Shown here piece after piece: positions 784-43,331 of a DNA stretch of 46,647 nucleotides. Position numbers and translations under genes: made by a program. The notes beneath the pieces are model-generated. The model saw nothing but the letters and a program-made list of their open reading frames with translations. It searched no databases and was not told the DNA's origin. Where the stretch lies: positions 1-46,647 of the forward strand of contig CALCCH010000559.1 of assembly GCA_937899855.1 (NCBI GenBank), given 5' to 3'. This DNA is from an uncultured Saprospirales bacterium (GTDB lineage: Bacteria; Bacteroidota; Bacteroidia; Chitinophagales; Saprospiraceae). Each line of letters opens with the position of its first letter. Position 1 is the stretch's first letter.

Positions 784-1899
784 CTAGACGGATACCTGAC
801 GTTTTTTTGTCATGGGATACACCGAAAGCAGTACCGTTTCGACCCCTTTGAGCAGCTCCGCATTGGAAAAATCGGCTGCGCGCCGCTGGGCCGTCTGCGC
901 CATGATTCGGTACTCCTGGGGGTGCTGGGCCAAGTGATTGATCGCCGTTACTAGCGCCGTCAAATGTCGTTGGTCAATGAGGAAGCCTTCCCGGCCGTCG
1001 CTGACGATTTCGGCGGGGCCACCCACGGGTGGGGCGATACAGGGCAAGCCGTAGTGCATGCCTTCCAGGAGGGTCATCCCAAAGGTCTCGATCCACTGTT
1101 CGGGATGTGAAAGGTTGAGCAAGAGGTGAGCCGATCGGTAGAAAGGGTGGACGTTCGACTGTCGAGCATGACAGTGCAGGTTGCGCGGTAAGGTATGTTC
1201 CGCAAAGTACTCAGCGATTTCCGGCGCCTCGGCGTTGAGCACCAATTCAAAGGTGTGTTCGGGCAACTGACGCGCCAAATCCACAAAAACGTCGACTCCC
1301 TTGTAAGCTTTGAGCGAGCACAACATCAGGACGCGCAAGGCCTCAGTTTCACCGGGCGCCACTTCCACCACCTGCGCCGCCGCCTTAAACTTTTCCGACA
1401 GCGCATTCGGTACCACCGCATCCGCTACGCCCACCAGGGCCTCTTCCTCCGCCAAGTAATGCGATACAAAAATGACCTTGCTTGCCGTCAGTCGCGCCAC
1501 CCAGCGTAGGAAGCGCTTCAGCAGGCGGGGCCTTACCGATACTTCGTGCAGGTGATAGACCACCGGCTTGTCCATCCACCAAGCCGCCAACGCCGCGCCA
1601 AAGGGCAAGAGCGTATTGATGTAGATCATTCCCAACTCCCGTCGCCGCGACCGCAGCAACCAAAACAACTGCCACTGGCTCCACAAAAACAAAACCAGCC
1701 GCCAGTAGCGATTGCCCACCCAGGGATAACTAAAGTGTCGGTAAGTAACCGGAAGGTTGGACAGAAAGCCCTCGCGATCCGCGCTGGTATACATTTCACA
1801 ATCGTAGCCTTGTCCCGCCAAGCCTTCCACCACGGTGGAAAAAATCAGTGGGCTGCCACTGTAATCATTGAGTAGGTGAACACAAGCAATTTTTTTCAT
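784..1899 (-). CDS. GT4-family glycosyltransferase (GT-B fold)
   Basis: This 371-residue protein has the two-domain GT-B layout. The N-terminal acceptor domain begins MKKIACVHLLNDYSGSP. The C-terminal donor domain carries the EX7E motif at Glu271-Glu279 (ETFGMTLLE), followed by the Gly-rich PPVGGPAEIV segment that contacts the sugar nucleotide in GT4 enzymes. It has no signal peptide or clear membrane span, so it should act at the cytoplasmic face on a lipid-linked repeat unit. Its start overlaps the stop of the preceding glycosyltransferase gene by 4 bases (1896-1899), which indicates translational coupling. It is the last glycosyltransferase of the cluster. Donor and acceptor sugars cannot be read from the sequence. 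Confidence 0.88.
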   Translation of the reverse strand: MKKIACVHLLNDYSGSPLIFSTVVEGLAGQGYDCEMYTSADREGFLSNLPVTYRHFSYPWVGNRYWRLVLFLWSQWQLFWLLRSRRRELGMIYINTLLPFGAALAAWWMDKPVVYHLHEVSVRPRLLKRFLRWVARLTASKVIFVSHYLAEEEALVGVADAVVPNALSEKFKAAAQVVEVAPGETEALRVLMLCSLKAYKGVDVFVDLARQLPEHTFELVLNAEAPEIAEYFAEHTLPRNLHCHARQSNVHPFYRSAHLLLNLSHPEQWIETFGMTLLEGMHYGLPCIAPPVGGPAEIVSDGREGFLIDQRHLTALVTAINHLAQHPQEYRIMAQTAQRRAADFSNAELLKGVETVLLSVYPMTKKRQVSV

Positions 1900-3164
1900 C
1901 CGACGGGAATTTCAATTTTGGAAGGACTATTTTCGGCCGCTAGCATTTCGGCGTAGAGCACTCTGAGGATTTCCCCCTTGCGCTCCCAGGTAAAGGTGGT
2001 GGCGTGTCGCTGACGGGCGCCGAGCGCCAATTGCGCCCGCAGGGGCCGGTCGTGGTACAGCAGCCGCAACTGCTCCGCCAGGGCTGCCACCGTAGTTTCG
2101 TAACTGGCGTAGGGAACCTTCCGGCCACAGGTCGCATCCACAAATTCGCCCGGCCCGGGATTGTCGAGGCAGAGGATGGGCAGACCCGCCGCCAGGGCTT
2201 CGGGGACCACCATGCCGGCCCCCTCGTGCGAGGGAAAGCAAAACAGGGCCGCCCGTCGGTAAATGTCCCACAAGTCCTTTTGCTCAATCCACTCAATCCA
2301 CTTGATCCCCGCCTCTACGGACAGCTCCCGAGCCAGGGCCCGCAGGCGTTCGCGCTCGGGCCCCTTGCCCACCAGCGTCAACTGCACCTGGCCCCGCTCC
2401 GCCGCGGACAAACCGCGGTAAAACTGAGCAAAGGCACGAATGGTCAGGTCAAAACCCTTCAGCGGTACGAAACGTCCTACCGACAGGATTTCAAAATCCA
2501 CCAAGGGGGTTACCGTACGCTCGGGGAGAGAATTCGCCCCTACCGCGGGCAAGCGGCGTACCTTGGTGGCCAGACGCGGCGAACGACGGGCCACTTGGCT
2601 GTTGATCGCCAGAACGTGTTGGGCTTGGTTCTGGGCACGGCGTAGGAAGGGATCATAGCGCCAGAAGCAGCGCTTGGTCCACCACTTGAGGCGGTGTAGC
2701 CAGAGGGCGCGCCAGCCGTAGGGCCCGCGGATAAATTCGGCGGGATAATCGGGATGGTGTCCCACGGGGCCCCACACCAGGGGCTTGCCCAGTTGGCCCA
2801 GAAAAGTGGGCGTCCAATCGTTGTGGAAATTGAGGTTGTGCGCCAGGTCGAAGGCAATCTGGCGGCGGCGAATAAAGCCGGGGATGCTGGCTTGCCAGAG
2901 GTAGAAGTACAACAGTGCGCCCCGATTTTTTCGCTTCCAAAAACGCAGGTAGTACGGCCAATCAAAATAGTAGAATTGTAGGTTGTCGCGACCGGGGAAT
3001 CGGTGCTCGGCGAGGTAGCGCGCGATGTCCGCTTGGTTATTTTCTCGGGTGATCGCCACGACGCGGTGGTGGCGAGCGATTTGCAAAAGCATGTTCCAGG
3101 CGGTACCGTCTTCGGATCCTTTGTAGGGATTGACGGCGTAGCAAGTGAGGAGGATGGTTTTCAT
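1896..3164 (-). CDS. GT4-family glycosyltransferase
   Basis: A 422-residue GT-B glycosyltransferase. The start is MKTILLTCYAVNPYKGSEDG, with the Gly-rich acceptor-side loop. The donor domain opens with SVGRFVPLKGFD (residues 228-239), and the EX7E motif is at Glu314-Glu322 (EGAGMVVPE). A long Trp/Arg-rich stretch at about 145-175 is suited to peripheral contact with the inner membrane. It overlaps both neighbours by 4 bases (acyltransferase at 3161-3164, next glycosyltransferase at 1896-1899), so the three are one translationally coupled block. It probably adds one sugar to the exopolysaccharide repeat; substrate unknown. Confidence 0.88.
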   Translation of the reverse strand: MKTILLTCYAVNPYKGSEDGTAWNMLLQIARHHRVVAITRENNQADIARYLAEHRFPGRDNLQFYYFDWPYYLRFWKRKNRGALLYFYLWQASIPGFIRRRQIAFDLAHNLNFHNDWTPTFLGQLGKPLVWGPVGHHPDYPAEFIRGPYGWRALWLHRLKWWTKRCFWRYDPFLRRAQNQAQHVLAINSQVARRSPRLATKVRRLPAVGANSLPERTVTPLVDFEILSVGRFVPLKGFDLTIRAFAQFYRGLSAAERGQVQLTLVGKGPERERLRALARELSVEAGIKWIEWIEQKDLWDIYRRAALFCFPSHEGAGMVVPEALAAGLPILCLDNPGPGEFVDATCGRKVPYASYETTVAALAEQLRLLYHDRPLRAQLALGARQRHATTFTWERKGEILRVLYAEMLAAENSPSKIEIPVG

Positions 3165-3901
3165 AATTCAACGCTCATTTCGGTGGGTAGGGAAGGAGGT
3201 TTGGCATTGGTCTGTGGCAACTGGCGTAGGACGCGGGCCGGTACACCCGCAACTAGCGAGTGGGGCGGTACCGAACGGGTCACCACGGCACCAGCGGCAA
3301 TGACGCAGTGTTCGCCAATGCTCACCCCATCGAGGATGGTCACCTTGGCCCCAATCCAACAATTTTTCCCAATCCGAATGCCCCGTCGCCGCACGCCCTG
3401 CAAACGGATCGGAACATCCGGCAATTCGTAGCGGTGGTTTTCGGGATGACAACTCAGGTACTGCCCGATGATGCAATCCTCCCCAATCTCCAATCCCCCC
3501 GCGCCACCGAGGTAGGCAAATTCTCCCAACCCCACATTGTTGCCAATCCGAATGCCCTCCCCCACTTGATTGAAAGAGGTGGAGACGACCAAGCGGCTAA
3601 ACGCGCCAATGCGCACTCCGTCACCCAGCACGAGTTTACTGCGCCCTAGGGCGCTGAGGTACACCTGGTCTTCCAGTTGCACCCAGCGCCCCAGCTGCAT
3701 GTTTCGGGCGTTGAATAAGCGGACGCCAGTCCCGAAAAAACGACCCCAGGGAGCGTGGCCCCACCGGAGTAAACGCAGTGCTCTCCATTGCCCCCACAAC
3801 TTTGACCACAGCAATTCGAGGAGCAAACCATTCGATACCTGAGCATCGAATTGGAAGTTGGGATTCTTCCGACGAATCCAATAGATTAATAATGCTTTCA
3901 T
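3161..3901 (-). CDS. Hexapeptide-repeat (left-handed beta-helix) acyltransferase
   Basis: I chose the ATG at 3901 (MKALLIYWIRRKNPNFQ) because it overlaps the stop of the preceding gene as ATGA. A start at 3928 is open but would reach 31 bases into that gene. The protein has 246 residues. The second half is a run of imperfect hexapeptide repeats ([LIV]G-x4) such as VRIGAFSRLVV, IRIGNNVGLGEFAYLGG, LEIGEDCIIG, IRIGKNCWIGAKVTIL and VSIGEHCVIAAGAVV. It ends in SVPPHSLVAGVPARVLRQ, the usual C-terminal signature of the NodL/WcaF/maa group. The family uses acetyl-CoA (or another acyl-CoA) to O-acylate sugars, so it most likely decorates the exopolysaccharide repeat. Confidence 0.87.
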   Translation of the reverse strand: MKALLIYWIRRKNPNFQFDAQVSNGLLLELLWSKLWGQWRALRLLRWGHAPWGRFFGTGVRLFNARNMQLGRWVQLEDQVYLSALGRSKLVLGDGVRIGAFSRLVVSTSFNQVGEGIRIGNNVGLGEFAYLGGAGGLEIGEDCIIGQYLSCHPENHRYELPDVPIRLQGVRRRGIRIGKNCWIGAKVTILDGVSIGEHCVIAAGAVVTRSVPPHSLVAGVPARVLRQLPQTNAKPPSLPTEMSVEL

Positions 3902-5196
3902 AGTTGAACCTTTTTGTAATGCTGCCAAATAAGTTGGAGGGTGTCCGCTTTTTCTTCGTTCTCAATGGCTAGGTAATATTCTCCGGTCCCTCCCCGCTCT
4001 TGTCCAAGTTGGTCAAAGAGCTGTCGGTACCGATCGGTGAGTTGTTGGATGTCCTCCCGGGGCAGTTCCTGTTTACGCGCCCGAATCACTTCGGGACGGG
4101 CGTAGAGAAAAAAGTTCAGTTGGGGCTTGTGGATAAAACGGTAGAGGAAACGCGGCAGCCGATCATCGAGTTGCAAGTTCGACCGCCGACCGTCGACGAT
4201 AAAGTCAAAGTAGTAGCGATCGTACAGGACGATGTAGGAGCGCAGGTGGTAGCGAAAAAAGATGTAAAACTGGCCCAGCAAATAATCGGCGTAGTAGTAG
4301 CCAAAGCGCAGCGCGGACGACCAGCCGCTGCGGTTTTGACCCTGCCGGGGCAGCCGCGTGGCCGCCCGTTGCTCCGCCGCCCGTTTGCCGTAGCGGTAGG
4401 CACTCAAGATGGGAATGAGCGAAGGCCGGTGACGCAGCACCACGACCTTACGGCGGTACTTGCGCTGTAGCGTCGCCCGTACGGCCTCGATGATCGTACT
4501 CTTACCCGCACCATCTACCCCGCTAAAGCTGATGCTCATCCCCCGATTTTGACCAAAGCCCACCAGCACTCCACAGTAATGGCGCAGCCAGCGCCCCGTA
4601 CGGCGCAGCCAGTGATTGGCACGCCGCGCGTGCAGACCGTCGATGATCCGCCAACGCCACTCCGGACGGTATTCGCCCAGTTCACTCCAGGCACCGACCC
4701 ACAGTCCGTACCGTTCTTGGAGCTGGCGCTTCATGGAGGCCTGTACCGTGGGACTCAAGCTTGCGAAGTAATCCAAATATTTTTCGGGAATGGGGGCGTA
4801 GTTGAGCCAATTGAAGAGCAGCAGGTGTTCGATCAAATGCTCCGGACTACACACCCGCAAACCCGCCGCATTGACGCGGGCCCCGGATTGGACCACTTCG
4901 GTGGACAGGTAGCGCAGGGACTTTCGAAAAAATCCAAATAGAAAATCGACCTGTAAAAAGGTATCGTCGTGGAAGTACAAAAACAGTTGCCACATGGTTG
5001 CTTGGCGACGGACTTGGTAGTTGTCGATACCCCGCCCTTGAAGCAGGATGGGCAGGATCTCCGCCGTTTGCGGCCGACTCAGCAGCAGGTCGATATCCGC
5101 ATCCTCTTCTTCCGCTCCGGTGTGTTTGAGCAATACGTAGTCCCGACCATCTAGCTGGCCAAAGAGGTGTTGGATCCATTGTGTCTTAAGTGTCAT
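3898..5196 (-). CDS. Nucleotidyltransferase-like domain fused to a thymidylate-kinase-like P-loop kinase
   Basis: The start at 5196 (MTLKTQWIQHLF) sits one base after the preceding stop codon; the frame is open further upstream but would overlap that gene by more than 110 bases. The protein has 432 residues. Residues 15-90 contain DADIDLLL (32-39), matching the acidic DxD strand of the nucleotidyltransferase fold. A basic linker (about 185-215) follows, then a P-loop kinase with Walker A GVDGAGKST (226-234), the strand VVVLRH and the DRYYFDFIVD segment (326-335), where thymidylate kinases carry DRY. Such kinases recur in surface-polysaccharide clusters and are thought to act on a sugar, alditol or lipid rather than dTMP. 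Real thymidylate kinases are about half this length. Function in the pathway is unproven. Confidence 0.72.
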   Translation of the reverse strand: MTLKTQWIQHLFGQLDGRDYVLLKHTGAEEEDADIDLLLSRPQTAEILPILLQGRGIDNYQVRRQATMWQLFLYFHDDTFLQVDFLFGFFRKSLRYLSTEVVQSGARVNAAGLRVCSPEHLIEHLLLFNWLNYAPIPEKYLDYFASLSPTVQASMKRQLQERYGLWVGAWSELGEYRPEWRWRIIDGLHARRANHWLRRTGRWLRHYCGVLVGFGQNRGMSISFSGVDGAGKSTIIEAVRATLQRKYRRKVVVLRHRPSLIPILSAYRYGKRAAEQRAATRLPRQGQNRSGWSSALRFGYYYADYLLGQFYIFFRYHLRSYIVLYDRYYFDFIVDGRRSNLQLDDRLPRFLYRFIHKPQLNFFLYARPEVIRARKQELPREDIQQLTDRYRQLFDQLGQERGGTGEYYLAIENEEKADTLQLIWQHYKKVQL

Positions 5197-5197
5197 G

Positions 5198-6484
5198 TCA
5201 ATTGGTTTGGGTAGTTGTGGAAGCATCCTGCCGAGGGATGACCCGCAGCGTAAAAAAGAGGATGATGAATTGGTAAAACAAAATGCCGTAGTTCGATTCG
5301 CCAAAAATGCCAAACTCCGTGGTGGAGTTGATGATGAGCGGAATCAGCATGGCCCCGGCCAGTAGTCGGAGGGCGGCATCCTTACTGGTGGCCAGGGCCT
5401 GAAAGGTGAGGAGCATTTGTAGAAAAACGATAAAGGCTCCCACCAGGCCGAGATTGATCAGGACCTGGACAAAGGTATTGTGCGTCATGGAGGCGGCGTA
5501 GGCGTGGATGCTGTCAAACTTGTTGCTAAAGGTATTGGGGCTGATGCTCATAAAGCCAAAGCCCAGCAGGGGGGCCCGGGGAAAACCCATGCTGATCAAG
5601 TCACTCCAAAAAGGCAGACGGCCCGTCATACTCATCACCTCTTCCACGTCGCCCTGCTTCAGGATGATGGTTTGGATCACTATCGGCAGGGCCAGCACCG
5701 CTCCGGCGATGGAGCCAAATTTGACCCAGTAGTTTTTGGACAGCAAAACAAAAATACCACTCACCAACACGAAGGCCCCCAGTGAAGACCGCGACTGCGT
5801 CAGCAAGAGCACCGCCACGCCCGCCACAAAAGCTAGGGCGTTGTAGATCAAATTGCGGCGCTCCAAAAATTCGAGGTACACCATCACCAAGCCCAGCACC
5901 GCCAGCATGCCCAGCTCGTTGGGGTTAATGATAAAGCCTCCCAAGCGGTGTACTTCCCCACCGTGGGTACCGCGAAAAAACGTTTCGGGCGCCACCACGA
6001 TTCCCCCCATAAATACCAAACCGATGACGAAGATCGACCGGTTGTTGATCCAGCTGAATACCGAGGTGCCATTGCCGTGGCGCACCTCGTAGTAACACAG
6101 GACCTGGTAGAAGAGCAGTACAAAGACCAGACTCTCGCAAGTCATGGCCAGTTGGATCAGGGTGAAGGGAACGTTGGTGGTCCAAAAAATGGACAGGATG
6201 CCCAGCCACAAGTAAAGGGCGTAAAAGCTAAAGGGCAGCAGCCGTTGGTACTGGACCCGCCAGGCCCCCGACTGGCTTTGCAGCACTTTGAGTAGGATGA
6301 GGGACAGGCCCGTCATCGCAAAGCGCAGGCCCACCTTCACCACTTGGGTGATGGCTACCGATCCGGGAAAAAGCGTAAAGTAGCTGCTGATCCGTATTCC
6401 CATCATCAACAGGAGCAGGTACAGTAGCCAGCGGCCGGAAGGGCGCGCAGCATTTGGTTTTATGGCTGGACGGAGCGGTGTCAT
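5198..6484 (-). CDS. Wzy-like O-antigen/exopolysaccharide polymerase or ligase (multi-pass membrane protein)
   Basis: A 428-residue integral membrane protein with about ten to twelve hydrophobic segments. A larger soluble loop sits between residues about 265 and 320 (MSMTGRLPFWSDLISMG to NKFDSIHAYAASMTHNTFVQVLINLG). That loop pattern, with TGR-x-FW and a later H-N-T-F-x-Q element before a membrane span, matches the Wzy_C/O-antigen ligase superfamily. It would polymerise the undecaprenyl-linked repeat units at the periplasmic side after flipping. It overlaps the upstream glycosyltransferase gene by 4 bases (6481-6484) and is separated from the downstream kinase gene by one base. Sequence alone cannot separate a polymerase from a ligase; the Wzx/Wzc/Wza context favours polymerase. 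Confidence 0.83.
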   Translation of the reverse strand: MTPLRPAIKPNAARPSGRWLLYLLLLMMGIRISSYFTLFPGSVAITQVVKVGLRFAMTGLSLILLKVLQSQSGAWRVQYQRLLPFSFYALYLWLGILSIFWTTNVPFTLIQLAMTCESLVFVLLFYQVLCYYEVRHGNGTSVFSWINNRSIFVIGLVFMGGIVVAPETFFRGTHGGEVHRLGGFIINPNELGMLAVLGLVMVYLEFLERRNLIYNALAFVAGVAVLLLTQSRSSLGAFVLVSGIFVLLSKNYWVKFGSIAGAVLALPIVIQTIILKQGDVEEVMSMTGRLPFWSDLISMGFPRAPLLGFGFMSISPNTFSNKFDSIHAYAASMTHNTFVQVLINLGLVGAFIVFLQMLLTFQALATSKDAALRLLAGAMLIPLIINSTTEFGIFGESNYGILFYQFIILFFTLRVIPRQDASTTTQTN

Positions 6485-7626
6485 GAAAGGCTGGGCATCG
6501 GCTGGTCCACTTTGTTATTTTCCGTATACACCTCGTACAAACGACGGGCGATGTCTTCCCAATTGAATTGCTCGGTCACCATGAGGCGGGCATTCTTACC
6601 CATGCGGCTCAACTGCCCATTCCGGTGCGCCTGCTCCAGTCGACCCAGGGCCTCGGCGATCGCCGAAGCGGTATTTTCCATCAGCACCCGACCGGCGCGG
6701 TAGTCCCCAATGTAGGAGCCCATATTCGTCGCTTCGCTCACCAGACAGGGCAGGCCCATGCCCGCCGCCTCGAGTACCGCCATCGGAAAGCCTTCCATCC
6801 GCGAGGTGCGGAAAAAAACATCTCCCCGCCGGATGAATTGAAATTTTTCCGCCCCAAAACGCGCCCCGTAAAACTCGACGGCCGCCCCAATGTCCAACTG
6901 TCCTACCAAGCGCTCCAAGAAAGCACGATCCTTGCCATTGCCGATCAAACCGACCCGTCCCTTTCCACCCGCCCGCTGGAACTGGGCAAAGCCCTCCAGG
7001 AACAAATCGAGCCCCTTGTGGTAGCGGTCCAGCCGCCCACAAAAAACGAAGTGAACACAGGCGTTGTCCGGTGCCGGCAGCTCGGGCAATTCGCGGAGGT
7101 CCTGCCCGTTCGGAATCAGAATGCGCTGGCACTGGGGTGCCAAGCGGGCCGCATTCTCAAAACCGGACCAACCCAGCAGTTGTACCACGCGGGCCCGCCG
7201 TAGCAAGCTGCGCTCAAATAGGCGGAGGTAGAAGGCCTTGAGGTAGGGGCTTTGCTGCATGGCACCGGGCGCCAGGGCCCCGTGGGGCGTCATGACGTAG
7301 GGCAGGCTCCGCTTCACCAATTGCCGATGAACGCTGTAAAAAGTTGGGATAAAGGCACCGTGCAGGTGAAAAATTGCGGGGCGCTTCAGTTGACCGATGG
7401 CGGCAACCAATTTGCGATCCAGAAAACCTTGGAGGCGGTGTTGGAGAAACAAGCGGGTCGTAAAATTGCGCTCCGGATAGTTGTGTTCCAGGTCATTGCT
7501 GAGCCCCCAGACCTCCACGTCGATCCCCTGATCGTGTTGGACGCTGGCGAGCTTGTGGACCACCTTATTGACGCCATTCATCCGCTCCGGATTGGCTTTA
7601 CCGAGTACCAAGTGAATAACTTTCAT
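6481..7626 (-). CDS. GT4-family glycosyltransferase
   Basis: A 381-residue GT-B enzyme. The acceptor domain has MNGVNKVVHKLA near residues 16-27 and the MTPHGALAPG signature at 112-121 that is common in Bacteroidota GT4 proteins. The donor domain has FCGRLDRYHKGLD (195-207), and the EX7E motif is at Glu278-Glu286 (EGFPMAVLE). The start overlaps the end of the flippase gene by 29 bases and its stop overlaps the polymerase gene by 4 bases, so it is inside the coupled operon. It probably transfers one sugar of the repeat unit; donor not determinable. Confidence 0.88.
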   Translation of the reverse strand: MKVIHLVLGKANPERMNGVNKVVHKLASVQHDQGIDVEVWGLSNDLEHNYPERNFTTRLFLQHRLQGFLDRKLVAAIGQLKRPAIFHLHGAFIPTFYSVHRQLVKRSLPYVMTPHGALAPGAMQQSPYLKAFYLRLFERSLLRRARVVQLLGWSGFENAARLAPQCQRILIPNGQDLRELPELPAPDNACVHFVFCGRLDRYHKGLDLFLEGFAQFQRAGGKGRVGLIGNGKDRAFLERLVGQLDIGAAVEFYGARFGAEKFQFIRRGDVFFRTSRMEGFPMAVLEAAGMGLPCLVSEATNMGSYIGDYRAGRVLMENTASAIAEALGRLEQAHRNGQLSRMGKNARLMVTEQFNWEDIARRLYEVYTENNKVDQPMPSLS

Positions 7627-8863
7627 AAAAGAATTTTCTTTTCCATAAAAAAAACAAGTACACCAACAGGGCCGCCACCTGCGTACACAGGAGGCCCAGC
7701 AATACCCCGTACAAGGACCAGGTACGGACCAGTGGATAGGCCGTCAGCAAACTAAAACCGCTGCCCCACACGTAGGCCCAAAAGATCGGACGGGTATCGC
7801 CGAGCGTGCGCAGAGCATAGCGCAGGGGGTGGGTCAGAAAGACAAAAACGTAGATCAAGCAACAGCCCAGCACCACCTCGTGGTAGCTGCTTTGCTCGGT
7901 GCCGTAAAGAAAGCCCAGCAAAGGCTCGGCAAAAATGGCGATCAGGGCGAGCAGCAGGGCGGTGAGTCCCCCCAACTTACGGGTGATCGCGGCGAGGTAT
8001 TTTTTTAGGGCCGGTAGTCCCTCCCGTTCGTATTGTTGGGCGGCGCGTAGCGGAATGAGGTTTTCCATGGCCAAAAAGAGTACGTGTAGCAGTCCCATCA
8101 GATTCTGAACCATTCGAATGGCCCCCAGCGCCACGGGCCCCAACAAAGCCGCCGCCGCCAGTAAGAAGTAATTGCCCGACCACCACTGGAGCAAGGCCGT
8201 TCCCACCAACCACTTGGCGTAGTCAAAGTGCTGTCGCCAACAAGCGCGCCAGCGCTGCGCCTCCCAAGTCCGCCACAAGTTCGTCCGACCAATCCCCACC
8301 AGTAGCACCAGCAAGTGGATCACCAGCAGAGTTTGTAGAAAAACCGCCACGCTCAGTTGGCCCCAAAAGTACTGTAGCCCCAAACTACCAAAGAGTAAAA
8401 TGGCGTAGGTGGCGTCCAGTAACAAGGGCAGCCAAAAGTCCGACCGCAAGAAGTGGTACTTGCGGCAAAAGTCATACAGTGGATGCAGCACCGCCAGCAG
8501 GGAGACGATCAAAGTCGTGGCCCAGTCTCCCTCCCAGTACCCCAATTGGATGGCCAAACGCAGCAGGACCAAAAGCAAGCATCCCAGAGCGGTGCCAAAC
8601 ACCACTTGCAATTGAAAAACGCCACGTGGATAATCCGCCTCCGTTTGTCGGGGGGCCAGGCTGAGGAGGGGTTTGGTAATCAGGGCCTGACTGAGGCTGA
8701 GGGCAAATAGGACCACCATCCACCACAGGCTGTACCGACCAAAGGCTTCCAGCCCGAGGGCCTGGGTCACGGCGATGGCCAGCAGAAAATTGCTGCCGCT
8801 GACGATCAGTTGATCGAACAGGACGAGGGCACTTTGCGGAATTTTGGACCAGATTGCTTTCAT
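7598..8863 (-). CDS. Wzx-like polysaccharide flippase (MOP superfamily)
   Basis: A 421-residue protein with about 12 predicted membrane spans. It starts MKAIWSKIPQSALVLFDQLIVSGSNFLLAIAV; the phrase FDQ-x3-SGSNFLL is typical of the first helix of the polysaccharide_synt/MATE-like MOP flippases. The family translocates undecaprenyl-diphosphate-linked repeats across the inner membrane. The last about 28 bases overlap the following glycosyltransferase, and it begins 6 bases after the Wzc-like gene, so it belongs to the same transcript. The length fits the family. Confidence 0.82.
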   Translation of the reverse strand: MKAIWSKIPQSALVLFDQLIVSGSNFLLAIAVTQALGLEAFGRYSLWWMVVLFALSLSQALITKPLLSLAPRQTEADYPRGVFQLQVVFGTALGCLLLVLLRLAIQLGYWEGDWATTLIVSLLAVLHPLYDFCRKYHFLRSDFWLPLLLDATYAILLFGSLGLQYFWGQLSVAVFLQTLLVIHLLVLLVGIGRTNLWRTWEAQRWRACWRQHFDYAKWLVGTALLQWWSGNYFLLAAAALLGPVALGAIRMVQNLMGLLHVLFLAMENLIPLRAAQQYEREGLPALKKYLAAITRKLGGLTALLLALIAIFAEPLLGFLYGTEQSSYHEVVLGCCLIYVFVFLTHPLRYALRTLGDTRPIFWAYVWGSGFSLLTAYPLVRTWSLYGVLLGLLCTQVAALLVYLFFLWKRKFFYESYSLGTR

Positions 8864-8869
8864 GTAGCC

Positions 8870-11086
8870 TTAGCGTAGGGTATTGAATCCATTGAGGACG
8901 GTGAAGACATTTTTGATTTTGAAGGCGGCCAGGTATTCCTCCATTTTCCCCATGTCCCGTAGCCAGGTCCGGTGCTTGCGCAGCACCAACAGGTTGACGT
9001 CGCCGTACTGGAGGGCGGATAGCCCAAAGGAGTTTTTGGCCAGTGGGGCGGCGTCGATCAGGAGGACGTCGTAGCGTTGGCGCAGCTCGGCCAGGAGCTG
9101 GGCACTTTGGGGAGAGCAGAGGTCGACGGCGCTGGGTCGGTGTTGGCCACGGCCCAGCAAGTCGGCCGTTCCCAGTACGTAGGGGTGGATGGGGGCCTGG
9201 CTGCCGTCGGGTTGGAGGAGGAGATCGGAAAAACCGGTCTGTCCCCCCTCGGGGAGGTAGCGCGGTGGTGGCGAAACGTAGTCCAGATCGATGAGCAAGG
9301 TCCGCTTGCCATAGCTGGATAGCAACTGGGCCAGCCCCGCCGCAATGGTGGACTTGCCCTCCTTCTTCCGACTGGAACTGATGGCGATCACCTTCCCCCC
9401 CCGCAGCATGTCCAGGTCCTGCAACTTGCGGTAGAGCGGGAGCAATTGCTCCTCCATCTGGTCCTGCTTCTTGGGAATGGACGCAACGGTGGACAGGAGG
9501 GGAAGGGTTAACTTCTCTTCGTATTCTTCGATAAACGTGAGCTTGGCCATCAGGAAGTTCCAGACAAAGGACAGGAACAGTCCCAGCAGGAGCGCGACCA
9601 TCAGGGCTCCACCTACGATCAGGCCTTTGTTGGGGGCAATGGGGTGGTTGGGCACTTCGGCGTAGTCGATGATTTTGTGGAAGATGACGTTGGACGATTG
9701 GGCCACGCTCAGCTCGGTGCGCTTTTTGGCCAGCAGTCGGTAGGTTTGTTCTTCGAGTTGGAAGTTGCGTTCGAGGGCCAGGAGCTTGCGTTCCTTATCG
9801 GGCAGGAGTCGGAATTCGCGGTCGAGATCGATGACGGCGCGGTACAGCTCTTCGCGCTTATCGGCGATGTTGACCATTTTCTTGCGTACACTTTCGAGGG
9901 TAAAGTCCTTGAGCTCGCGCAACTTTTCGTCCAGCGCGGCCACCTCGATGCTTTGTTCCGAAAAACGGGTCAACAAATCGGTACGCTCCAATTCCAGGTT
10001 TTTCATTTTCCGAAAAGTCCCCTCCAGCACCTGATCGTCGAGGGCGCTAAAGTCGGAAGAAAAGCCGGCGATGGATTGATCGGTAATGAGAAAGTCGTAG
10101 ACGTTTTTCAACTCCACCTCCTGAATGTCAAAATGCAGTTGTTGTTCGCTGATCTGATTGGATTGTCGCAGCAGGGCATCGGTTTCCTGCCGCAGGTCGA
10201 CCAATCGGTTGCGCTTGCGGGAGCGGGCCAGCCGGCGTTCGGCACGGTCGAGGCGTTGTTTGACTTCCCCGATTTCATCGTCGATAAACTGCAGGGTGCT
10301 GGCTGCCTTGCGATTGCGGTTGTCCCGATCCTGGGCAATGTAAGCATCGAGCAAGGCATTGACAAAGAGCGCGGCCTTATCCGGGATTTCGTGTTGGTAG
10401 TAGGCCTTGACGACGTAGACTTCCTTGTCGAGGGGTTTGATAAACAGGTTCTTATCGCTGATGCCTTTGACCAAGGTCTCCACGGAGTTGAAGCGAATGG
10501 CAAAACGGTCGCCCGCATTGAGGGTGTGGGGGTTCTCCGCCAACCACTCCTCTTCCAACGCCAACTCCAGCCACAAATGCTCCGGTGCTTCCCAACGTTC
10601 TCCCGGAGCAATTCCGCTAGTGGGAATGGCTTCCGCCTCCGTACTGATGCCAAAGTGACCGTCCGCCAGATAGGTGAGGTAGTACAACTTACCGTACACC
10701 GCTTCGTCGTATATTTCGTAAGCGATTCGAAAGGGAAGATCGTGGTACAATTCCGTGCGTTTCACCTTGCCAAGACGGTAGTAGGAGACCTCAAAGTTCA
10801 ATTGCTCAAAAGTGCGTCGCAAGAGGGCAGCCGAACGAAAGAGTTCTACCTCGGTCAGAAAGTTATTGCTAAAAGCGGAGCCTTTGCCCGTTTCAAAAAT
10901 TTCAAAATTTTGTATGCCCAAATCCCGACTGTCGAGCTTAATCGAAGCCGAAGCCTGGTACAGCGACTGGGAATAGTTGATGACCCGGCGCGCCAGTAAA
11001 AAGGCGATCACCAGTAATAGTGCGATGACGGGTAGCCCCCGCAGCACGGGCAAAATCAGATTCCGATATTCCTTTTGCAAATTCAT
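8870..11086 (-). CDS. Wzc-like polysaccharide copolymerase with BY-kinase domain
   Basis: A 738-residue inner-membrane protein. Spans at about 14-34 and 488-510 flank a periplasmic Wzz-type domain with a long charged coiled coil (about 255-460). The cytoplasmic kinase domain follows: Walker A SSRKKEGKST (571-580), Walker A' LLIDLD (597-602) and Walker B VLLIDAAP (674-681). Known Wzc/CapB kinases autophosphorylate a C-terminal tyrosine cluster. Here the protein ends LNGFNTLR with no such cluster, so its regulation may differ. It is 15 bases downstream of the Wza-like exporter gene, the usual partner that forms the envelope-spanning export channel and controls chain length. Confidence 0.9.
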   Translation of the reverse strand: MNLQKEYRNLILPVLRGLPVIALLLVIAFLLARRVINYSQSLYQASASIKLDSRDLGIQNFEIFETGKGSAFSNNFLTEVELFRSAALLRRTFEQLNFEVSYYRLGKVKRTELYHDLPFRIAYEIYDEAVYGKLYYLTYLADGHFGISTEAEAIPTSGIAPGERWEAPEHLWLELALEEEWLAENPHTLNAGDRFAIRFNSVETLVKGISDKNLFIKPLDKEVYVVKAYYQHEIPDKAALFVNALLDAYIAQDRDNRNRKAASTLQFIDDEIGEVKQRLDRAERRLARSRKRNRLVDLRQETDALLRQSNQISEQQLHFDIQEVELKNVYDFLITDQSIAGFSSDFSALDDQVLEGTFRKMKNLELERTDLLTRFSEQSIEVAALDEKLRELKDFTLESVRKKMVNIADKREELYRAVIDLDREFRLLPDKERKLLALERNFQLEEQTYRLLAKKRTELSVAQSSNVIFHKIIDYAEVPNHPIAPNKGLIVGGALMVALLLGLFLSFVWNFLMAKLTFIEEYEEKLTLPLLSTVASIPKKQDQMEEQLLPLYRKLQDLDMLRGGKVIAISSSRKKEGKSTIAAGLAQLLSSYGKRTLLIDLDYVSPPPRYLPEGGQTGFSDLLLQPDGSQAPIHPYVLGTADLLGRGQHRPSAVDLCSPQSAQLLAELRQRYDVLLIDAAPLAKNSFGLSALQYGDVNLLVLRKHRTWLRDMGKMEEYLAAFKIKNVFTVLNGFNTLR

Positions 11087-17101: not shown

Positions 17102-17854
17102 TTACAAACGCTCCAACAAACGAATCACCTCCGGTTTTTTACGGACCGATACCGGTACCTCCGAGCCATCTCGCATCCGCAGGTAGCCTCCCTCCGTCTT
17201 GACGTAGGCCTGGATCAATGCGGCATTGATCAGGTGCGATTGGTGGACCCGGACGAAGCGGTGCTCGTGCAGGAGCTTGTCGTACTCCTTGAGCGTTTTG
17301 GTAACCAGGAGCTTGCTTCCGTCGGTAAAGTAAAAATGGGTATAGTTGCCCGTCGATTCGCAGCGGACAATGTCCGCAATCTCGGCCACCAGGATTTTCT
17401 CCTGGGTGTGGAGGGCCAGGCGGCGGGGCGGTTCGCGTTTTTTGACGGTATCCAGAAGGAGGTCCATGCCCGCGGCCGATTCCGGGAGGCCCCGGTGGAG
17501 CTGGGCTTTGATCTTAGCTACGGCGGCCACGAGGTCGTCGGGGTCGACGGGTTTGAGGAGGTAGTCGACGGCGGAGTAGCGAAAGGCTTTGATGGCGAAG
17601 GCGTCGGAAGCGGTGGTGAAGATCACCCGGTAATTTTTGGTGGGTAGGATTTCGAGGAGGTCAAAACCCGTTCCGTCCTGAAGTTGGATGTCGAGGAAGA
17701 GGATATCGGGGGCTTGCTGGCGCAGGAGCTTGGCGCCGCTCACCACCCCTTCGGCCGTACCGACCACCCGGACCGCTGGACAGTAGGCCTCCAGATCGGC
17801 CTTTAGGTTGGCAATGGCGGCGGGCATGTCGTCGATTATCACGGCAGAGATCAT
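17102..17854 (-). CDS. LytTR-family response regulator
   Basis: A 250-residue protein with an N-terminal receiver domain: acidic pocket IDDM (Asp8/Asp9), phospho-acceptor Asp55 in DILFLDIQLQDG, Thr/Ser switch in VIFTTASD, and Lys in YLLKPVD. The C-terminal LytTR DNA-binding domain (about 145-248) contains ILVAEIADIVRCESTGNYTHFYF and FVRVHQSHLINAALIQAYVKTEGGYLRM. It is transcribed after two histidine kinase genes on the same strand. LytTR regulators typically pair with LytS-type kinases, so the propeller kinase at 20208-23276 is the likely partner, but the adjacent TPR kinase may also feed it. Confidence 0.93.
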   Translation of the reverse strand: MISAVIIDDMPAAIANLKADLEAYCPAVRVVGTAEGVVSGAKLLRQQAPDILFLDIQLQDGTGFDLLEILPTKNYRVIFTTASDAFAIKAFRYSAVDYLLKPVDPDDLVAAVAKIKAQLHRGLPESAAGMDLLLDTVKKREPPRRLALHTQEKILVAEIADIVRCESTGNYTHFYFTDGSKLLVTKTLKEYDKLLHEHRFVRVHQSHLINAALIQAYVKTEGGYLRMRDGSEVPVSVRKKPEVIRLLERL

Positions 17855-17913: not shown

Positions 17914-20001
17914 CTAGCCCATCAGGGCGGGCTGGTTGTTGAGTTCGGATTGGGCAATGGCCTTTTCGGGCAGGGCAATGAAAAAGGTACTGCCGATCCC
18001 CTTTTCCGATTCCACCCAAATCTCCCCCAAGTGGCGATCGACGATTCGTTTGCACGTCGCCAAGCCAATTCCGGTTCCCTCGTATTCTTCCCGGGTGTGC
18101 AAGCGGTGGAACATGTCAAAAATCTTTTCCTTGGATTGCTCGTCGATACCGATGCCATTGTCCTTGACGTAGAGGGCACGCCGGCCCTGGACCATTTGAA
18201 AGCCCACTTCTACCCGCGGCGCTTCCGTATCCACAAACTTGATGGCATTGCTGATGAGGTTTTGAAACAACTGGACCATCTGACTCGGATCGGCCTTGAT
18301 CTTGGGCAAGTCGTGATAATGTACTTGCATATCGACCTGCTTCTCTTCGCTGGCAGCCCGCAGGTTAGACGTCACCATGGCCATGATATCGGTCGCCTCT
18401 ACCCAACGTTGGTTGCCCCCGCGGGTCTCGACCCGGGAGTAGGCCAGCAAGTCATCGAGCAAGGTCTGCATCCGATCCACCGCATCCACGACGTAGTACA
18501 TAAATTCGTGGGCCTGATCGTCAAAGAGTTGATTGTAACGTTTCTTGAGTAAGGTGGTGTAGGAGCTGATCATTCGCAGCGGCTCCTTCAAATCGTGCGA
18601 GGCGACGTAAGCAAACTGCTGCAAGTCTTCATTAGACAATTCCAACTGTTTGTTCTGACGATGAATTTGCTCGTTCTTCTCTTCCAACAAGCCCACCAGG
18701 CGTTTTTGCATCCGAAAGCGACTGAACCAAAGCAGGGCCAGACCGAGGAAGAAAATCAGCGTTCCACCCATGAGGTAAAAATTCAGACTGCGGATTTTCT
18801 GCTCCGTTTCGAGGAGGGCCTTTTCAGTGGTCAGTAGGGCGATTTGATCTTCGCGCTTTTGGACTTCGTAACGCGTCTTGGCCTCGCCCATTTCCCGCAC
18901 CGACGATTCGGTAATGATCGAATCTTTGAGGGCAATGTAATCGTGCAGGTACATATTGGCCAGCCGGTGCTCGCCACTCTTACCGTAGGATTCCGCAAAG
19001 GCTTCGTAAATTTCCATCCGCCGCTGTTTCGACCCGATCTCCGTCGCCAAACCCTTGGCCCGGTGGAGGTACTTCAAGGATTCCGAGTGCCGGTCCAATT
19101 CGTTGAGCACCCGCCCCAGGGCCAGGTACGAACCAATCAAACTCCACTTGTCGCCCACTTCTTCCTTGATCGTAATTGACTCCAGAAAGTAGCGCTTGGC
19201 TTCGGGCAAGTTGCCCATCCCCTCGTAAATCGAGCCAATGATTTGCAGGGCGTAGGATACGCCCGTCCGGTACGACAATTCCTCCGCAATGGCCAGGGAA
19301 TGTTTGCTGTATTCGAGGGCCTTATCGTATTCCTCCGTCTTGATGTACACACTCGCGATCGCTCCCAAACAAGAGTAAACCACCTTCTGATTGCCGATGG
19401 CTTCACAAATCGACAGCGACCGTTGGTAGTAATCAAAAGCGTCCTGATAATTTTGTTGGTAGTACAGAATCGATCCCAAGCCATACAGCGATCCGGCGAT
19501 TTCCAGGGAGTCATTATTACTCTCGTGAATCCGCAGCACCTCAATGTTGTACTGATAGGCCTTGTTGTAATCGCCAAGGTCCTGGTAGATCTTAGCAAGG
19601 TTGTTGTAAGCGTTCGCCACCGAGCGTTCTTCGAAAGCCTCGGTAGGCAATTCTTTCATCTCCATAAATGAGGCCAGGGCATCCTCGTAGTGGTTGAGGC
19701 GATACTGGGCAAAACCCAAGAGCAGCAAGAGATCACCCGAGCGGTAGTTGTGCCCCGCTTCGCGCAAGGCCTCCAGAGCTTGGGTGCACCGCTCCATACA
19801 CTCTTCGTAAGCTTCCAACTTGCGGAGCTGTAGCCCCAACTCGTAAGTGTGGTCGACCAGTCGCTCGATATTCTTGGCCGCCAGGGCCTCCGCGACCACT
19901 TGACGCAAGCTATCCGTTTTTGCTTCCTTTGCCACCGTGAAGTTCAAACCAGATAGAAATAATACGAGAACCAGTAAATATTTCTGGTTGGGGATGCCCA
20001 T
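17914..20001 (-). CDS. TPR-containing sensor histidine kinase
   Basis: A 695-residue protein. A signal peptide at 1-25 (LLVLVLFLSGLNFTVA) is followed by about seven tetratricopeptide repeats (about 50-360; e.g. ANAYNNLAKIYQDLGDYNKAYQ) and a transmembrane span at 408-426. After a coiled coil comes a HisKA domain, with phospho-acceptor His469 in YVASHDLKEPLRM. The HATPase_c domain has an N-box (LFQNLISNAIKF) and G-boxes (DNGIGI, GTGIGLATCKRIV). The TPR region is therefore periplasmic. The nearest regulator gene is the LytTR protein 59 bases downstream. Most HisKA kinases use OmpR- or NtrC-type regulators, so the pairing here is uncertain. Confidence 0.92.
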   Translation of the reverse strand: MGIPNQKYLLVLVLFLSGLNFTVAKEAKTDSLRQVVAEALAAKNIERLVDHTYELGLQLRKLEAYEECMERCTQALEALREAGHNYRSGDLLLLLGFAQYRLNHYEDALASFMEMKELPTEAFEERSVANAYNNLAKIYQDLGDYNKAYQYNIEVLRIHESNNDSLEIAGSLYGLGSILYYQQNYQDAFDYYQRSLSICEAIGNQKVVYSCLGAIASVYIKTEEYDKALEYSKHSLAIAEELSYRTGVSYALQIIGSIYEGMGNLPEAKRYFLESITIKEEVGDKWSLIGSYLALGRVLNELDRHSESLKYLHRAKGLATEIGSKQRRMEIYEAFAESYGKSGEHRLANMYLHDYIALKDSIITESSVREMGEAKTRYEVQKREDQIALLTTEKALLETEQKIRSLNFYLMGGTLIFFLGLALLWFSRFRMQKRLVGLLEEKNEQIHRQNKQLELSNEDLQQFAYVASHDLKEPLRMISSYTTLLKKRYNQLFDDQAHEFMYYVVDAVDRMQTLLDDLLAYSRVETRGGNQRWVEATDIMAMVTSNLRAASEEKQVDMQVHYHDLPKIKADPSQMVQLFQNLISNAIKFVDTEAPRVEVGFQMVQGRRALYVKDNGIGIDEQSKEKIFDMFHRLHTREEYEGTGIGLATCKRIVDRHLGEIWVESEKGIGSTFFIALPEKAIAQSELNNQPALMG

Positions 20002-20207: not shown

Positions 20208-23200
20208 TTATGCGGATTCCGGCCAGGTGGGCATCCGTAATTGGACCCGAGTGCCGGCCGCTCGACCGTCTGTTTCGAGGTCTTCAATCTGTAGGGCGGG
20301 TGCGTCCAAATCCTGTTGGGTCAGCAGTAGGAGCCGCTCCTGAATGACTTGCAGGGCGGTAGATTTGTGTTGGGCCTCGCGTTGGCTACTGAGCTGGCGG
20401 GCGCGGGCGCGGCCGATGCCATTGTCGCTCACGGTACAGCGAAGGTGGGTACTGCTGGCGGTGAAATGTAAGTCGATCTTGCCACGCCGTTCGACCAGTT
20501 GGGCCACGCCGTGGATGATGGCGTTTTCGACAAAGGGTTGGATCATCATGGGGGGTATCCAGAGGGCTTCGGTGTCCAGGTCGGGATCGAAGGTGATGTG
20601 GTAATCGAAGGACTGGCCCCTGCTGAATTGCTCCAGCATTAGGTAGTTATCGAGGCCTTGAATTTCTTGAGCCAAGGTGATGCGGCTGCTGCGGGAATTT
20701 TCGAGGGTATTGCGCATCAGCTTGGAAAACTTGGCCAACTGGTAGCGGGCCTTGCGGTGATCCCGCTCGCCAATCAATTGTTGAATTGAATTGAGGGCGT
20801 TGAAAATAAAGTGGGGATTCATCTGCAATTGCAGGGCTTTTTGCTCAAGCTGCAGCAACTTTTTCTCCAACTCCAAACGCGCCCGCTCCGCCGCTGCGGC
20901 CCGACGGATGCGATTGACCCGCCAACGCGTCAATCCCACCACCACCGACAGGAGCAACAACAGCCCCCCCAGACGGAACCACCAGCGCTGCCAAAAGGGC
21001 GTACGGATGTAAAAGGGCACGGCCAGGGGCAACTCGTTCGTGACCTGGTCCTCGTTGTAAGCACGTACTTTAAAGGTGTAGCGACCTGGTGGCAGATTAG
21101 AATAGTTGACCGAGCGGTTGGCCGTTCGGGGCGACCAATCCGTTTCGTAACCCTCCAACTGCCATTCGTAGGTAACCTTACCCTGGTTGGAGTGGTTGAT
21201 GCCGCGGAAGAAAAAACCCAGGCTATTGGCCGCGTGGGGCAATTGCAAGCCCGGCTGGAGCCCGCCCCAACTGTCGACCCATTCCCCGTAAGGCGTTTGC
21301 CGCAGGGGATCGTAAAAGAGTTGTACCTCCTCCAGGTGTACGCGCGGGGCCACCGTATTTTTCCGACCACTACCGGGCCGGTAATGCGTCAGTCCGTTCA
21401 TGGTGCCAAACCACAAATCGCCCCGCCGGTCGCAAATCACGGCATTGCTACACGTCTCTCCTCCTCTAAAGCCCTCCGCGTAGCCGTAGGGTACGATCTC
21501 CGCAATTTCCCGAGCCGCATCCAAAGACAGGCGATCCACCCCCCGTTCGTGTCCAATCCACAGGTGGCCAACTCGGTCAAAAACCATCTGGTAGATATTA
21601 TTGGAGCTCAGACCCTCGCGGGTACCAAAGGATTGGAGCTCCAGGGAATCGCCCCGCAAGCGCAGCCGGAAGATGCCCCCCCGGGTCGGTCCCCCCCACA
21701 GGTAACCCAGACTGTCGAAGGCTAGGGTCCGTACCTCGTCGTCCGGCAAGCCGAGTTTGGTATTGAAAAGTTGAACGCCTTGGAGGGTATCCAAAAAGCC
21801 TAGCCCCTGGTAACGCGTCGCGAACCAGAGACGCTCCCGGCCCTCCAGCAGCAGGTCGTAGATGTAGTTGGCGAGAAAATCACCCTGGCGGTTGTAGGAA
21901 ACAATGCGGTAGCCCCGCCCCAGGGAATCGGCAGGTTCGGGACTCAGGCAGGTAATGCCACCACCGGTAGTGGCCACCCAGATCCGCCCCCGGGTATCTT
22001 CCACCAGATCGCGAATGAGACCAGTACCGACGCCTTCCACCTCACCGTACAAGCGAAAGGTATCCCGATCGTAGCGCCCCAAACCGCGATTGTCAAAACC
22101 CATCCACAATTGCCCCCGACTATCGTACAACACGGTCCGCGATTTGGTAGCCACCCAGCCCGAATCGCGTCCGTAGTGTACAAACCCCTCCCCATCAAAA
22201 CGGGATACGCCCCGCGAAGTCGACAACCACAGTTGTCCCGTGCTGTCCTCGGCGATGCCGTAAATTTCTTTATCGATCAAGCCATCGGCCTCGTCGTACA
22301 GTACGAACTGCTGCCCCGAATACTTGCTTACCCCACCCCCCGACGTTCCCACCCAGTGGTTGCCCCAGCTGTCCTGTACGATCGCGCGTACGTCGTTGCT
22401 CTCCAGCCCGTCCCGTTCCTGTAGGTAGCGGAGGCTGCTGTCGCGGGGATTCCAAATGTTGATGCCCGCATCGGTGGTCCCCATCCAGATTTCCCCACTG
22501 GCCGACTCGTGAATGGACACGACCCGCTCGCTCGACAGGCCCTCGGCCCGCCCCAGGGCCATCCACAGGCTTTGTCCATCCGAACATTGGACGCCCCCAC
22601 CCTCCGTCGCTATCCAAATCCGTCCCGTTTGGTCCTCCAGTAGTTCGAAGGGCAGAGCACCATTCCAGCCTTCTTCTATACCAAAATGCCGAACGTTCCC
22701 CCGCGGACTGAGCACGAAGATTCCACGACTCCCCCCCAACCACACAAAACCGTGACGGTCGACCAGGCAGCAACGCAGATCGGTATTGCCCAGTAAGGGG
22801 TGAGTGGTGGGATAAGACTGGATAGAGTCGTCCTGAAAATAGTACAGCCCCCGCTGGGTGGCCAACCACAACCGCTGTTCTCGTCCCCGGCTGATGTCGT
22901 ACACCAGCAGGTTGCGCGGACTGGGCCAGGCTCGAAATTGCTGCCCATCGTAGCTACAAAGGCCCTGATCCGTTCCGATCCAGAGATCACCCGCCTCGTC
23001 TTCGCAGATGCTCAGCACGTAATTGCTCCGCAGGCCCTGAGCCTGGGTAAAATTGCGAAATTCGCTGCCGTCATAACGGCTCAGTCCCCCACCCCAGGTC
23101 CCCATCCAGATGAAGGCCCGCCGATCCTCCAGCAGATCGTAGACTTGCGACTGCGCCAGTCCATCTTTTCCCGAGAAATTGCGGATATATTACTCCTGGG

Positions 23201-23276
23201 CCTGCAGGAGCCGACCGACGAGGAGCCCCGCCAGGAAGAGCAGGGCTTGGAGCCAGATGGAAGGGGTGCGAATCAT
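20208..23276 (-). pseudogene. Propeller-sensor LytS-type histidine kinase interrupted by an in-frame TAA after the signal peptide
   Basis: The frame opens at ATG 23276 with a good signal peptide (MIRTPSIWLQALLFLAG, ending LLQAQE). It meets TAA at 23190-23192, then continues in the same frame with YIRNFSGKDGLAQSQVYDLL, a normal start of the propeller sensor. The open part runs to 20208. The next ATG (23105) lies inside the first propeller blade and gives 965 residues. Domains: about fourteen Reg_prop repeats, a Y_Y_Y domain (LPPGRYTFKVRAYN), one membrane span (WWFRLGGLLLLLSVVVGL), a His_kinase domain with the phospho-acceptor in QMNPHFIFNALNSIQ, and HATPase_c (DNGIGRARA). Without readthrough the protein would lack export. 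CAA (Gln) to TAA is one transition away. It is either a recent nonsense mutation, a sequence error, or recoding; the rest of the gene shows no decay. Confidence 0.82.
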
Positions 23277-41132: not shown

Positions 41133-43331
41133 TTAGCGTTGTACTAAAACCTTTTGGACAAATACTTTTTCCCCCTGGCGAATCGTCAGCAATAGGGTTC
41201 CGTTGGGAATGCGATCGAGGGGCAGTTGATCTTCGTAGTGACCGTCAAAGTCCGCCAGGTCTTGCTGGAGCAGTTCCCGGCCGTCCAGGGCTCGCAAGGC
41301 GATTTGGGTGGGCGAAACCTCGGCGTCAAAGCGTACGTTGAGGTACTCGTCGGCGGGGTTGGGAAAGGCACTAAAATTGTTCAGGCTGAGCGCGCGTACG
41401 GGATTTTCCACCGCGTCCCGCTCCGTTCCTTCCAAGCGGAACGCTACGGGGAGATTGAAGTAGACGCTAGCACTTTTACCATTGGCAGTTGCGCCGGGGG
41501 TCCAGGGCCCCAACTCCGTCTTCATTTGCTCCACGACCATCAGCACGGCCTCGTCACAGCCGTAGCCCAGCGAGCGCGTCACGCGGGGCTTGCGCAAATG
41601 GCCCTCGCTATCGATGATGAATTTGGTCATCACCATGCCTTCGATGCCACTCTGCTTGGCATCCTCCGGGTATTCGAGGTGCTCCATTAGGAATTCAAAG
41701 AGCTTGGCGTTGGAGCAGGCCTGGTCTTCGCAACCCGGCAGCAAGGGCATCCGGTCGGCCACTTCCAATACCTTTTCCTCCCCCCCGGCCAACTTGAACT
41801 TGACGGGCAGGTGCATCTGCACCGCTACCGGTGCGCCAGCCTGTCGGCCCGGCACCCATTGCGGTAGGTTTTTGACCACGCGCAGCACCTCTTCATCACA
41901 ACCCCCACCGATCGAACGCATGATTTCGGGATCGTGGACCCGACCGTCTTTATCGACAATAAAGCGGGCCACTACTACCCCTTCCAAGCCCCGTTCGCGA
42001 GCGGCTTCGGGATACTGGATATTGGCGTAGACCTCGGATAACATTAATTGCTGGGTACAGGTTTTAAATGCTTCGCCCTCCAGGTCTTCGCAACCCGGCA
42101 GGTGGGGCATCCGATCCACCACGGTAAAGACCGCGCCTTCGGCGGTTTCCATAAAGTAGGCGGTCGTGCCGTTGCCTTTGGACCGGATTTGGATGGGTAC
42201 GCCCCGCTCCGCAATCAATTCCTCCGCTAAGGTCTTGATCTCTTCGGCCCGCTCCGGGTATTGTAATACATAGGTGTCGTACTGCGCCCGGAAGCGCCCG
42301 AAAGCGGCTTTTCGGATGCTAAAATCAGTGGCTTCACTTAGGGATGCCAGTTCCTTTGCCAAGGTGCTTCGCACTTTGGCCGCTTCAAAAGGGTCGGGGT
42401 TGGTCACGACGGCTGGGGGATTCACTTCGGCCGTGGTGTTGTCAAAGTCCGTAGTGGAAAAGGCCAAGAGTAAAAACGCGGCCAGCGGCAACAAACCAAG
42501 GTATTTCACCAGCGCTATACGGCTGGAGGTATTTTTGGTCATCATAATAATGCGTTGTTTTAATTGTGAGTGAAAAATGGAGTGCGCCAAAGCAGGGTGT
42601 TGTCCGGACTGTGCTTGCTTTAGCAACAATTGGCCATATTGTTTTTTAGGGGCAGTATCGTAAACGGCGGCATCCGCCAGATATTCGTGGACATTGCGCA
42701 GGGCAGTTTTGTAATAGTAGATGGGAGGTAAAAACCAAAAGAGAATGCCCAACAATTCCAGCAGCACGATGTCGAGGCTGTGGTACTGACGCAGGTGCGC
42801 CAACTCGTGCTGGAGTACGTAGTTTTCTTCCTCGGCAGCTAGACGCAGGGAACGACTCCAGAACAGGTAGCGAAAAAAGGAAAAGGGCGAGTGGGTCTCC
42901 GAGGTGCGTACCAGTACGTACCCCCGCCGGGGTTCCACCACGCTCCGCTGGTACAAGCGGTAGAGCTGTCCAAAGCCCCAGCCCATCCGCAGTAGGAAAA
43001 AGACGGCGCCCAGCAAGTATGCCAGTGGCAGGATGCGAAACCAAAACGCAAGCCGCTCCGCCGTGGGTTGAACGCTGATGGCCTCCACCGTATACTCCAA
43101 CTGCTGTACCGTGACGGTGACCGGTTCGAGAAAGTATTGCAAACCCTCTCCTTCCACCTCATCGACCGGTTGCCAAGGCAAGTCCAACACGGGAATCAAT
43201 AGCCCGAGTACCAAGGTTCCCAGGAGGTACCAACGGTTGAGCCGAAAAAAGGTCTCCCCCCTCAGGAATAGGCCATAAAGCAATAAGAAAATGCTCCAGC
43301 AAATGCCCACCTGAATTGCGTAGTTAAGCAT
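41133..43331 (-). CDS. BlaR1-like M56 peptidase with two TonB C-terminal domains and a T9SS sorting domain
   Basis: The start is ATG 43331 (MLNYAIQVGICWSIFLLLY), overlapping the repressor stop; the ATG at 43337 is also possible. The protein has 732 residues. The N-terminal M56 membrane domain has about four spans, with zinc motif HELAH (175-179) and downstream HEYLADAA (215-222). A periplasmic linker follows, then two TonB_C domains (VYANIQYPEAARERGLEGVV... and HLEYPEDAKQSGIEGMV...). The C-terminal about 75 residues read FSAFPNPADEYLNVRF...PNGTLLLTIRQGEKVFVQKVL, a type A T9SS sorting domain. BlaR1 homologues sense a signal and inactivate BlaI-type repressors. A sorting domain for outer-membrane secretion on an inner-membrane protein is unusual. 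Confidence 0.88.
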   Translation of the reverse strand: MLNYAIQVGICWSIFLLLYGLFLRGETFFRLNRWYLLGTLVLGLLIPVLDLPWQPVDEVEGEGLQYFLEPVTVTVQQLEYTVEAISVQPTAERLAFWFRILPLAYLLGAVFFLLRMGWGFGQLYRLYQRSVVEPRRGYVLVRTSETHSPFSFFRYLFWSRSLRLAAEEENYVLQHELAHLRQYHSLDIVLLELLGILFWFLPPIYYYKTALRNVHEYLADAAVYDTAPKKQYGQLLLKQAQSGQHPALAHSIFHSQLKQRIIMMTKNTSSRIALVKYLGLLPLAAFLLLAFSTTDFDNTTAEVNPPAVVTNPDPFEAAKVRSTLAKELASLSEATDFSIRKAAFGRFRAQYDTYVLQYPERAEEIKTLAEELIAERGVPIQIRSKGNGTTAYFMETAEGAVFTVVDRMPHLPGCEDLEGEAFKTCTQQLMLSEVYANIQYPEAARERGLEGVVVARFIVDKDGRVHDPEIMRSIGGGCDEEVLRVVKNLPQWVPGRQAGAPVAVQMHLPVKFKLAGGEEKVLEVADRMPLLPGCEDQACSNAKLFEFLMEHLEYPEDAKQSGIEGMVMTKFIIDSEGHLRKPRVTRSLGYGCDEAVLMVVEQMKTELGPWTPGATANGKSASVYFNLPVAFRLEGTERDAVENPVRALSLNNFSAFPNPADEYLNVRFDAEVSPTQIALRALDGRELLQQDLADFDGHYEDQLPLDRIPNGTLLLTIRQGEKVFVQKVLVQR

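Follow-up and report, generated by a model that had tools for sequence, protein, structure and literature searches.

Does a stop codon that sits exactly at the boundary between a signal peptide and its sensor silence the gene, control it, or not exist in the organism at all? The question is raised by a histidine kinase gene in a 46,647-nucleotide stretch of DNA (the window), which is a whole contig (C559) of an 807-contig draft genome that is 91% complete. On the minus strand, the reading frame starts with the ATG at 23276-23274, and translation of the window gave MIRTPSIWLQALLFLAGLLVGRLLQAQE for codons 1-28, a signal peptide with the C-terminal end LLQAQE. Codon 29 is an in-frame TAA (23192-23190) with T as the next nucleotide (context TAA-T), and the start codon, signal-peptide stretch and stop together occupy 23190-23276. 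After the TAA the same frame resumes with YIRNFSGKDGLAQSQVYDLLEDRRAFIWMGTWGGG and remains open for 993 codons up to a terminal TAA at 20208, so the open remainder lies at 20208-23189. The next ATG, GTG or TTG in frame is the ATG at 23105-23103, which is 28 codons downstream, and its use would remove the signal peptide as well as the first 28 propeller codons. The start, the LLQAQE end, the stop and the 993 open codons had all been placed by the initial annotation, and its coordinates were exact.

A family profile search of the remainder matched Reg_prop (PF07494, E 1.5e-47), then Y_Y_Y (PF07495, E 4e-15), and in the kinase part His_kinase (PF06580, E 1.1e-20) and HATPase_c (PF02518, E 3e-5, slightly under the cut-off), with one transmembrane helix in the chain. 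Relatives with solved structures were PDB 4a2l, 3v9f, 3ott and 6swj, and the architecture of the large periplasmic propeller sensors of Bacteroidota has been described (PMC3243724). As predicted from its domains, the interrupted gene is an ordinary Saprospiraceae sensor of the Reg_prop propeller, Y_Y_Y and LytS-type His_kinase type, and the domain matches and the relatives agree with the identity first assigned to it. Downstream on the same strand, domain matches identified a histidine kinase with TPR and HisKA/HATPase domains (17914-20001) and a LytTR response regulator (17102-17854); the latter is a possible partner of the propeller kinase. Elsewhere in the window, the minus strand of 784-11086 carries an exopolysaccharide-type cluster with glycosyltransferases, a Wzy-like ligase, a MatE-type flippase and a GNVR/Wzc-like protein, and the minus strand of 41133-43439 encodes one chain in which a BlaR1-type M56 peptidase is combined with two matches to the TonB C-terminal domain and a weak one to a Por secretion tail.

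The closest orthologue (contig CALLVY010000204.1, 62% identity over 959 residues) was found in G001, which is the sole genome of the same genus, and among named relatives, uncultured Saprospiraceae MAGs come nearest. The G001 protein aligned without gaps on both sides of the stop (QEYYFNNFSGKDGLAQSQ against QE*YIRNFSGKDGLAQSQ), with 13 of 15 residues identical past the stop, and therefore the continuity across the stop is not due to chance. Opposite the codon-29 TAA, G001 has Tyr (TAT). All 13 relatives with full-length matches had a signal-peptide-like, hydrophobic N-terminus fused directly to the propeller in one open frame, a connection that the TAA severs in the present copy as sequenced. 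This also means that none of them starts at the internal ATG without a signal peptide, and the earlier claim that starting there would cost the sensor its export is upheld. Among the aligned relatives, the codon-29 site held Tyr, Phe, His, Ser, Asn and others, but Gln or a stop in none. The initial annotation had proposed Gln or Tyr as the original residue and a single CAA-to-TAA transition as the origin of the stop; Tyr was indeed found in the same-genus relative, but with TAT in the nearest relative and Gln never seen, that transition is not the likely path. A search of the same genus and of GTDB genomes found no second independent copy of the species near enough for comparison.

Two further propeller kinases of this genome were found to carry a lone in-frame TAG (AIRHGLLN*EGPGQL in C682 and ENKTA*VWQGNAI in C282), so we extended the analysis to the wider genome and surveyed 839 kb of it, with 1.8 Mb of sequence from relatives and related loci for comparison. 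A lone stop was counted by an objective rule, which required homology to either side of the stop, an ungapped alignment around it and a positive coding score. By this rule the present genome had 14 lone stops per 86,275 homologous codons, and four relatives together had 3 per 149,634, an odds ratio of 8.1 (P = 1.5e-4); the single relatives had 2, 1, 0 and 0 in 40,371, 37,002, 36,171 and 36,090 codons. A broader list of 19 candidates adds stops found by coding score or by eye, and these additions rest on judgement. An internal stop was seen in a single ABC_tran match of those listed for 13 genomes, and that match was in the present genome. The genes with lone stops were unrelated and otherwise intact, and each had only one stop even in open reading frames of more than 1,300 codons. 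Besides the propeller kinases, they included XerD-type recombinase, aminotransferase, ABC, GDPD-like, glycosyltransferase-like, RND adaptor and TonB-type genes (some of these names were read off the sequence and not taken from a family search), and the idea that the stops are a special trait of propeller kinases was rejected for this reason. A neatly placed stop in one gene resembles a regulatory switch, but caution is needed, for the survey of the same assembly found the like in unrelated genes.

The excess comprised all three stop codons, and it came almost without frameshifts: against 14 stops there was at most one, a possible case beside the stop in locus L161. A frameshift-aware Viterbi scan was dropped because overlapping genes led it to call many frameshifts that were false. 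Where the original residue could be guessed, it was Lys three times, Tyr at codon 29 of the present gene, Tyr or Phe twice, Cys twice, Gly once, and others. Sites from which a transition would give a stop (Gln, Trp, Arg) were absent among these guessable originals, a result of small numbers; a uniform error predicts a transition share of 25%, and natural mutation with a kappa of 2-4 predicts 39-57%. Of the 19 candidate stops, two fell in the outermost 100 bp of a contig, a zone that holds 1.1% of bases (P = 0.019), and a limit of 300 bp took in three (P = 0.024), but several cut-offs were tried and the enrichment was not significant at 500 or 1,000 bp. Missense changes at invariant columns showed no clear difference from the relatives once the outlying locus L132 was removed.

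Some of the affected genes had further oddities nearby. In the XerD-type recombinase gene (C340, about position 295, minus strand), where the stop is 295 bp from the contig end, SPNP*RHSFATH stood against SPHTFRHSFATH in G001, with three neighbouring codons off. The altered codons include that of the catalytic His of Xer proteins, and the triple change resembles a burst of sequence errors. In an ABC-type permease gene (C256, locus L159, about 9408, minus strand), the roughly 15 residues after the stop were strongly diverged before normal similarity returned, and an error burst or a compensated frameshift may account for this. A hybrid-kinase gene in C282 (L134/L016), which also has a lone TAG, had SDIMMP directly abutting VILLTARA in its receiver, with about 20 usual residues absent, and this gap may be a deletion or an assembly collapse. 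A separate observation was made in C247, where a dozen or so tRNA-like matches, several of them low-scoring, were packed into 1.5 kb (351-1816); the cluster resembles a tRNA array from a phage or another mobile element that was binned with the genome. The tRNA search gave 44 hits.

Since the same draft genome carries many lone stops in unrelated genes, the codon-29 stop is most likely a base error, or else a fresh mutation that disables the gene. We consider it probable that the TAA reflects an erroneous base in the assembly of a metagenome-assembled genome with thin coverage. The living organism would then make an ordinary exported propeller/LytS-type sensor kinase, with the signal peptide running straight into the propeller. 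Illumina sequencing errs almost only by substitution (99.5% of errors in one data set; PMC3334598), and an excess of isolated stops with frameshifts nearly absent fits short-read substitution errors and not gene decay or recoding. We infer that the excess arose from substitution errors, that coverage was thin, and that the codon-29 stop belongs to this excess. Against a base error, it must be said that the site is in the middle of its contig, with none of the other oddities that surround some lone stops of the genome, that the enrichment at contig ends is weak, and that the implied rate of 4-7e-4 errors per base is high for a polished assembly. The main rival is a real and recent nonsense mutation, which is possible but which we hold to be the less probable explanation. 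The gene would then have become a pseudogene only recently, either in the strain that was sampled or in some members of its population, and the cell would make a 28-residue peptide, with the rest left untranslated or weakly made, and not exported, from the internal ATG. Only one codon differs while the other 993 are intact and aligned throughout, and the genome has several paralogous propeller kinases, so that one of them could be dispensable; both facts suit such a mutation. Pseudogenes normally come with frameshifts, however, which are almost absent from the genome-wide excess of isolated stops, and no functional class escapes this excess. In addition, at least one affected gene is XerD-like, and its catalytic His is changed as well. 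On these sequence comparisons a sequence error is favoured over a fresh mutation for codon 29.

Recoding or readthrough had been named beside these two explanations in the initial annotation, and of the three it is the one that the analysis did not support. The TAA might be read through or recoded under regulation, so that the exported sensor is made under some conditions only. This would agree with the intact frame on both sides and with a stop exactly at the boundary of signal peptide and sensor, but we regard it as very improbable. The stop was conserved in no relative, and among bacterial termination signals UAAU has been described as the most efficient (PMC5289835). The present gene itself ends in TAA, which terminates more open reading frames of the surveyed genome than either other stop (TAA 114, TAG 108 and TGA 81 of 303). 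Moreover, TAG and TGA are also found among the other lone stops, which lie at sites of Lys, Cys, Gly and Tyr, a spread that no single suppressor or reassignment could serve. A change of the genetic code was likewise rejected, given that all three stops end genes and the interrupted sites vary in residue. There is hardly any chance that UAA readthrough decides the export of the sensor, or that the lineage tolerates broad low-level stop suppression in working genes; the latter would be remarkable if true, but the evidence speaks against it. Most likely, the codon-29 stop is not a new kind of gene control. It is just as implausible that the ATG at 23105 is the true start and that the signal-peptide-like reading upstream of it arose by chance. 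This ATG is the first start codon past the stop, but the 28 codons between the two are strongly conserved with the orthologues (YIRNFSGKDGLAQSQVYDLLED), and the internal start was rejected on this ground; in addition, the relatives without exception begin upstream, and a product made from it could not export the sensor.

For premature-stop errors in MAGs we found no usable account in the literature. The codon-29 stop resembles the single in-frame stops of draft metagenome assemblies, in which a one-codon break in an intact gene likewise recurs over unrelated genes, and the error origin proposed here would make it one of them. With bacterial stop-codon readthrough and reassignment it shares the frame that is open on both sides of the stop, but here the stop is unconserved, its context is the strongest for termination, and across the genome all three stop codons and many residues are involved. 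With the hybrid two-component propeller kinases of Bacteroides (4a2l, 3v9f and 3ott), the present gene shares the many Reg_prop repeats, Y_Y_Y, the one transmembrane helix and the cytoplasmic kinase, whereas its kinase half is LytS-type (PF06580) and its chain has no receiver or AraC domain. The likeness in the signal peptide is a feature of the present gene's relatives, while the present copy itself has a TAA after the signal peptide.
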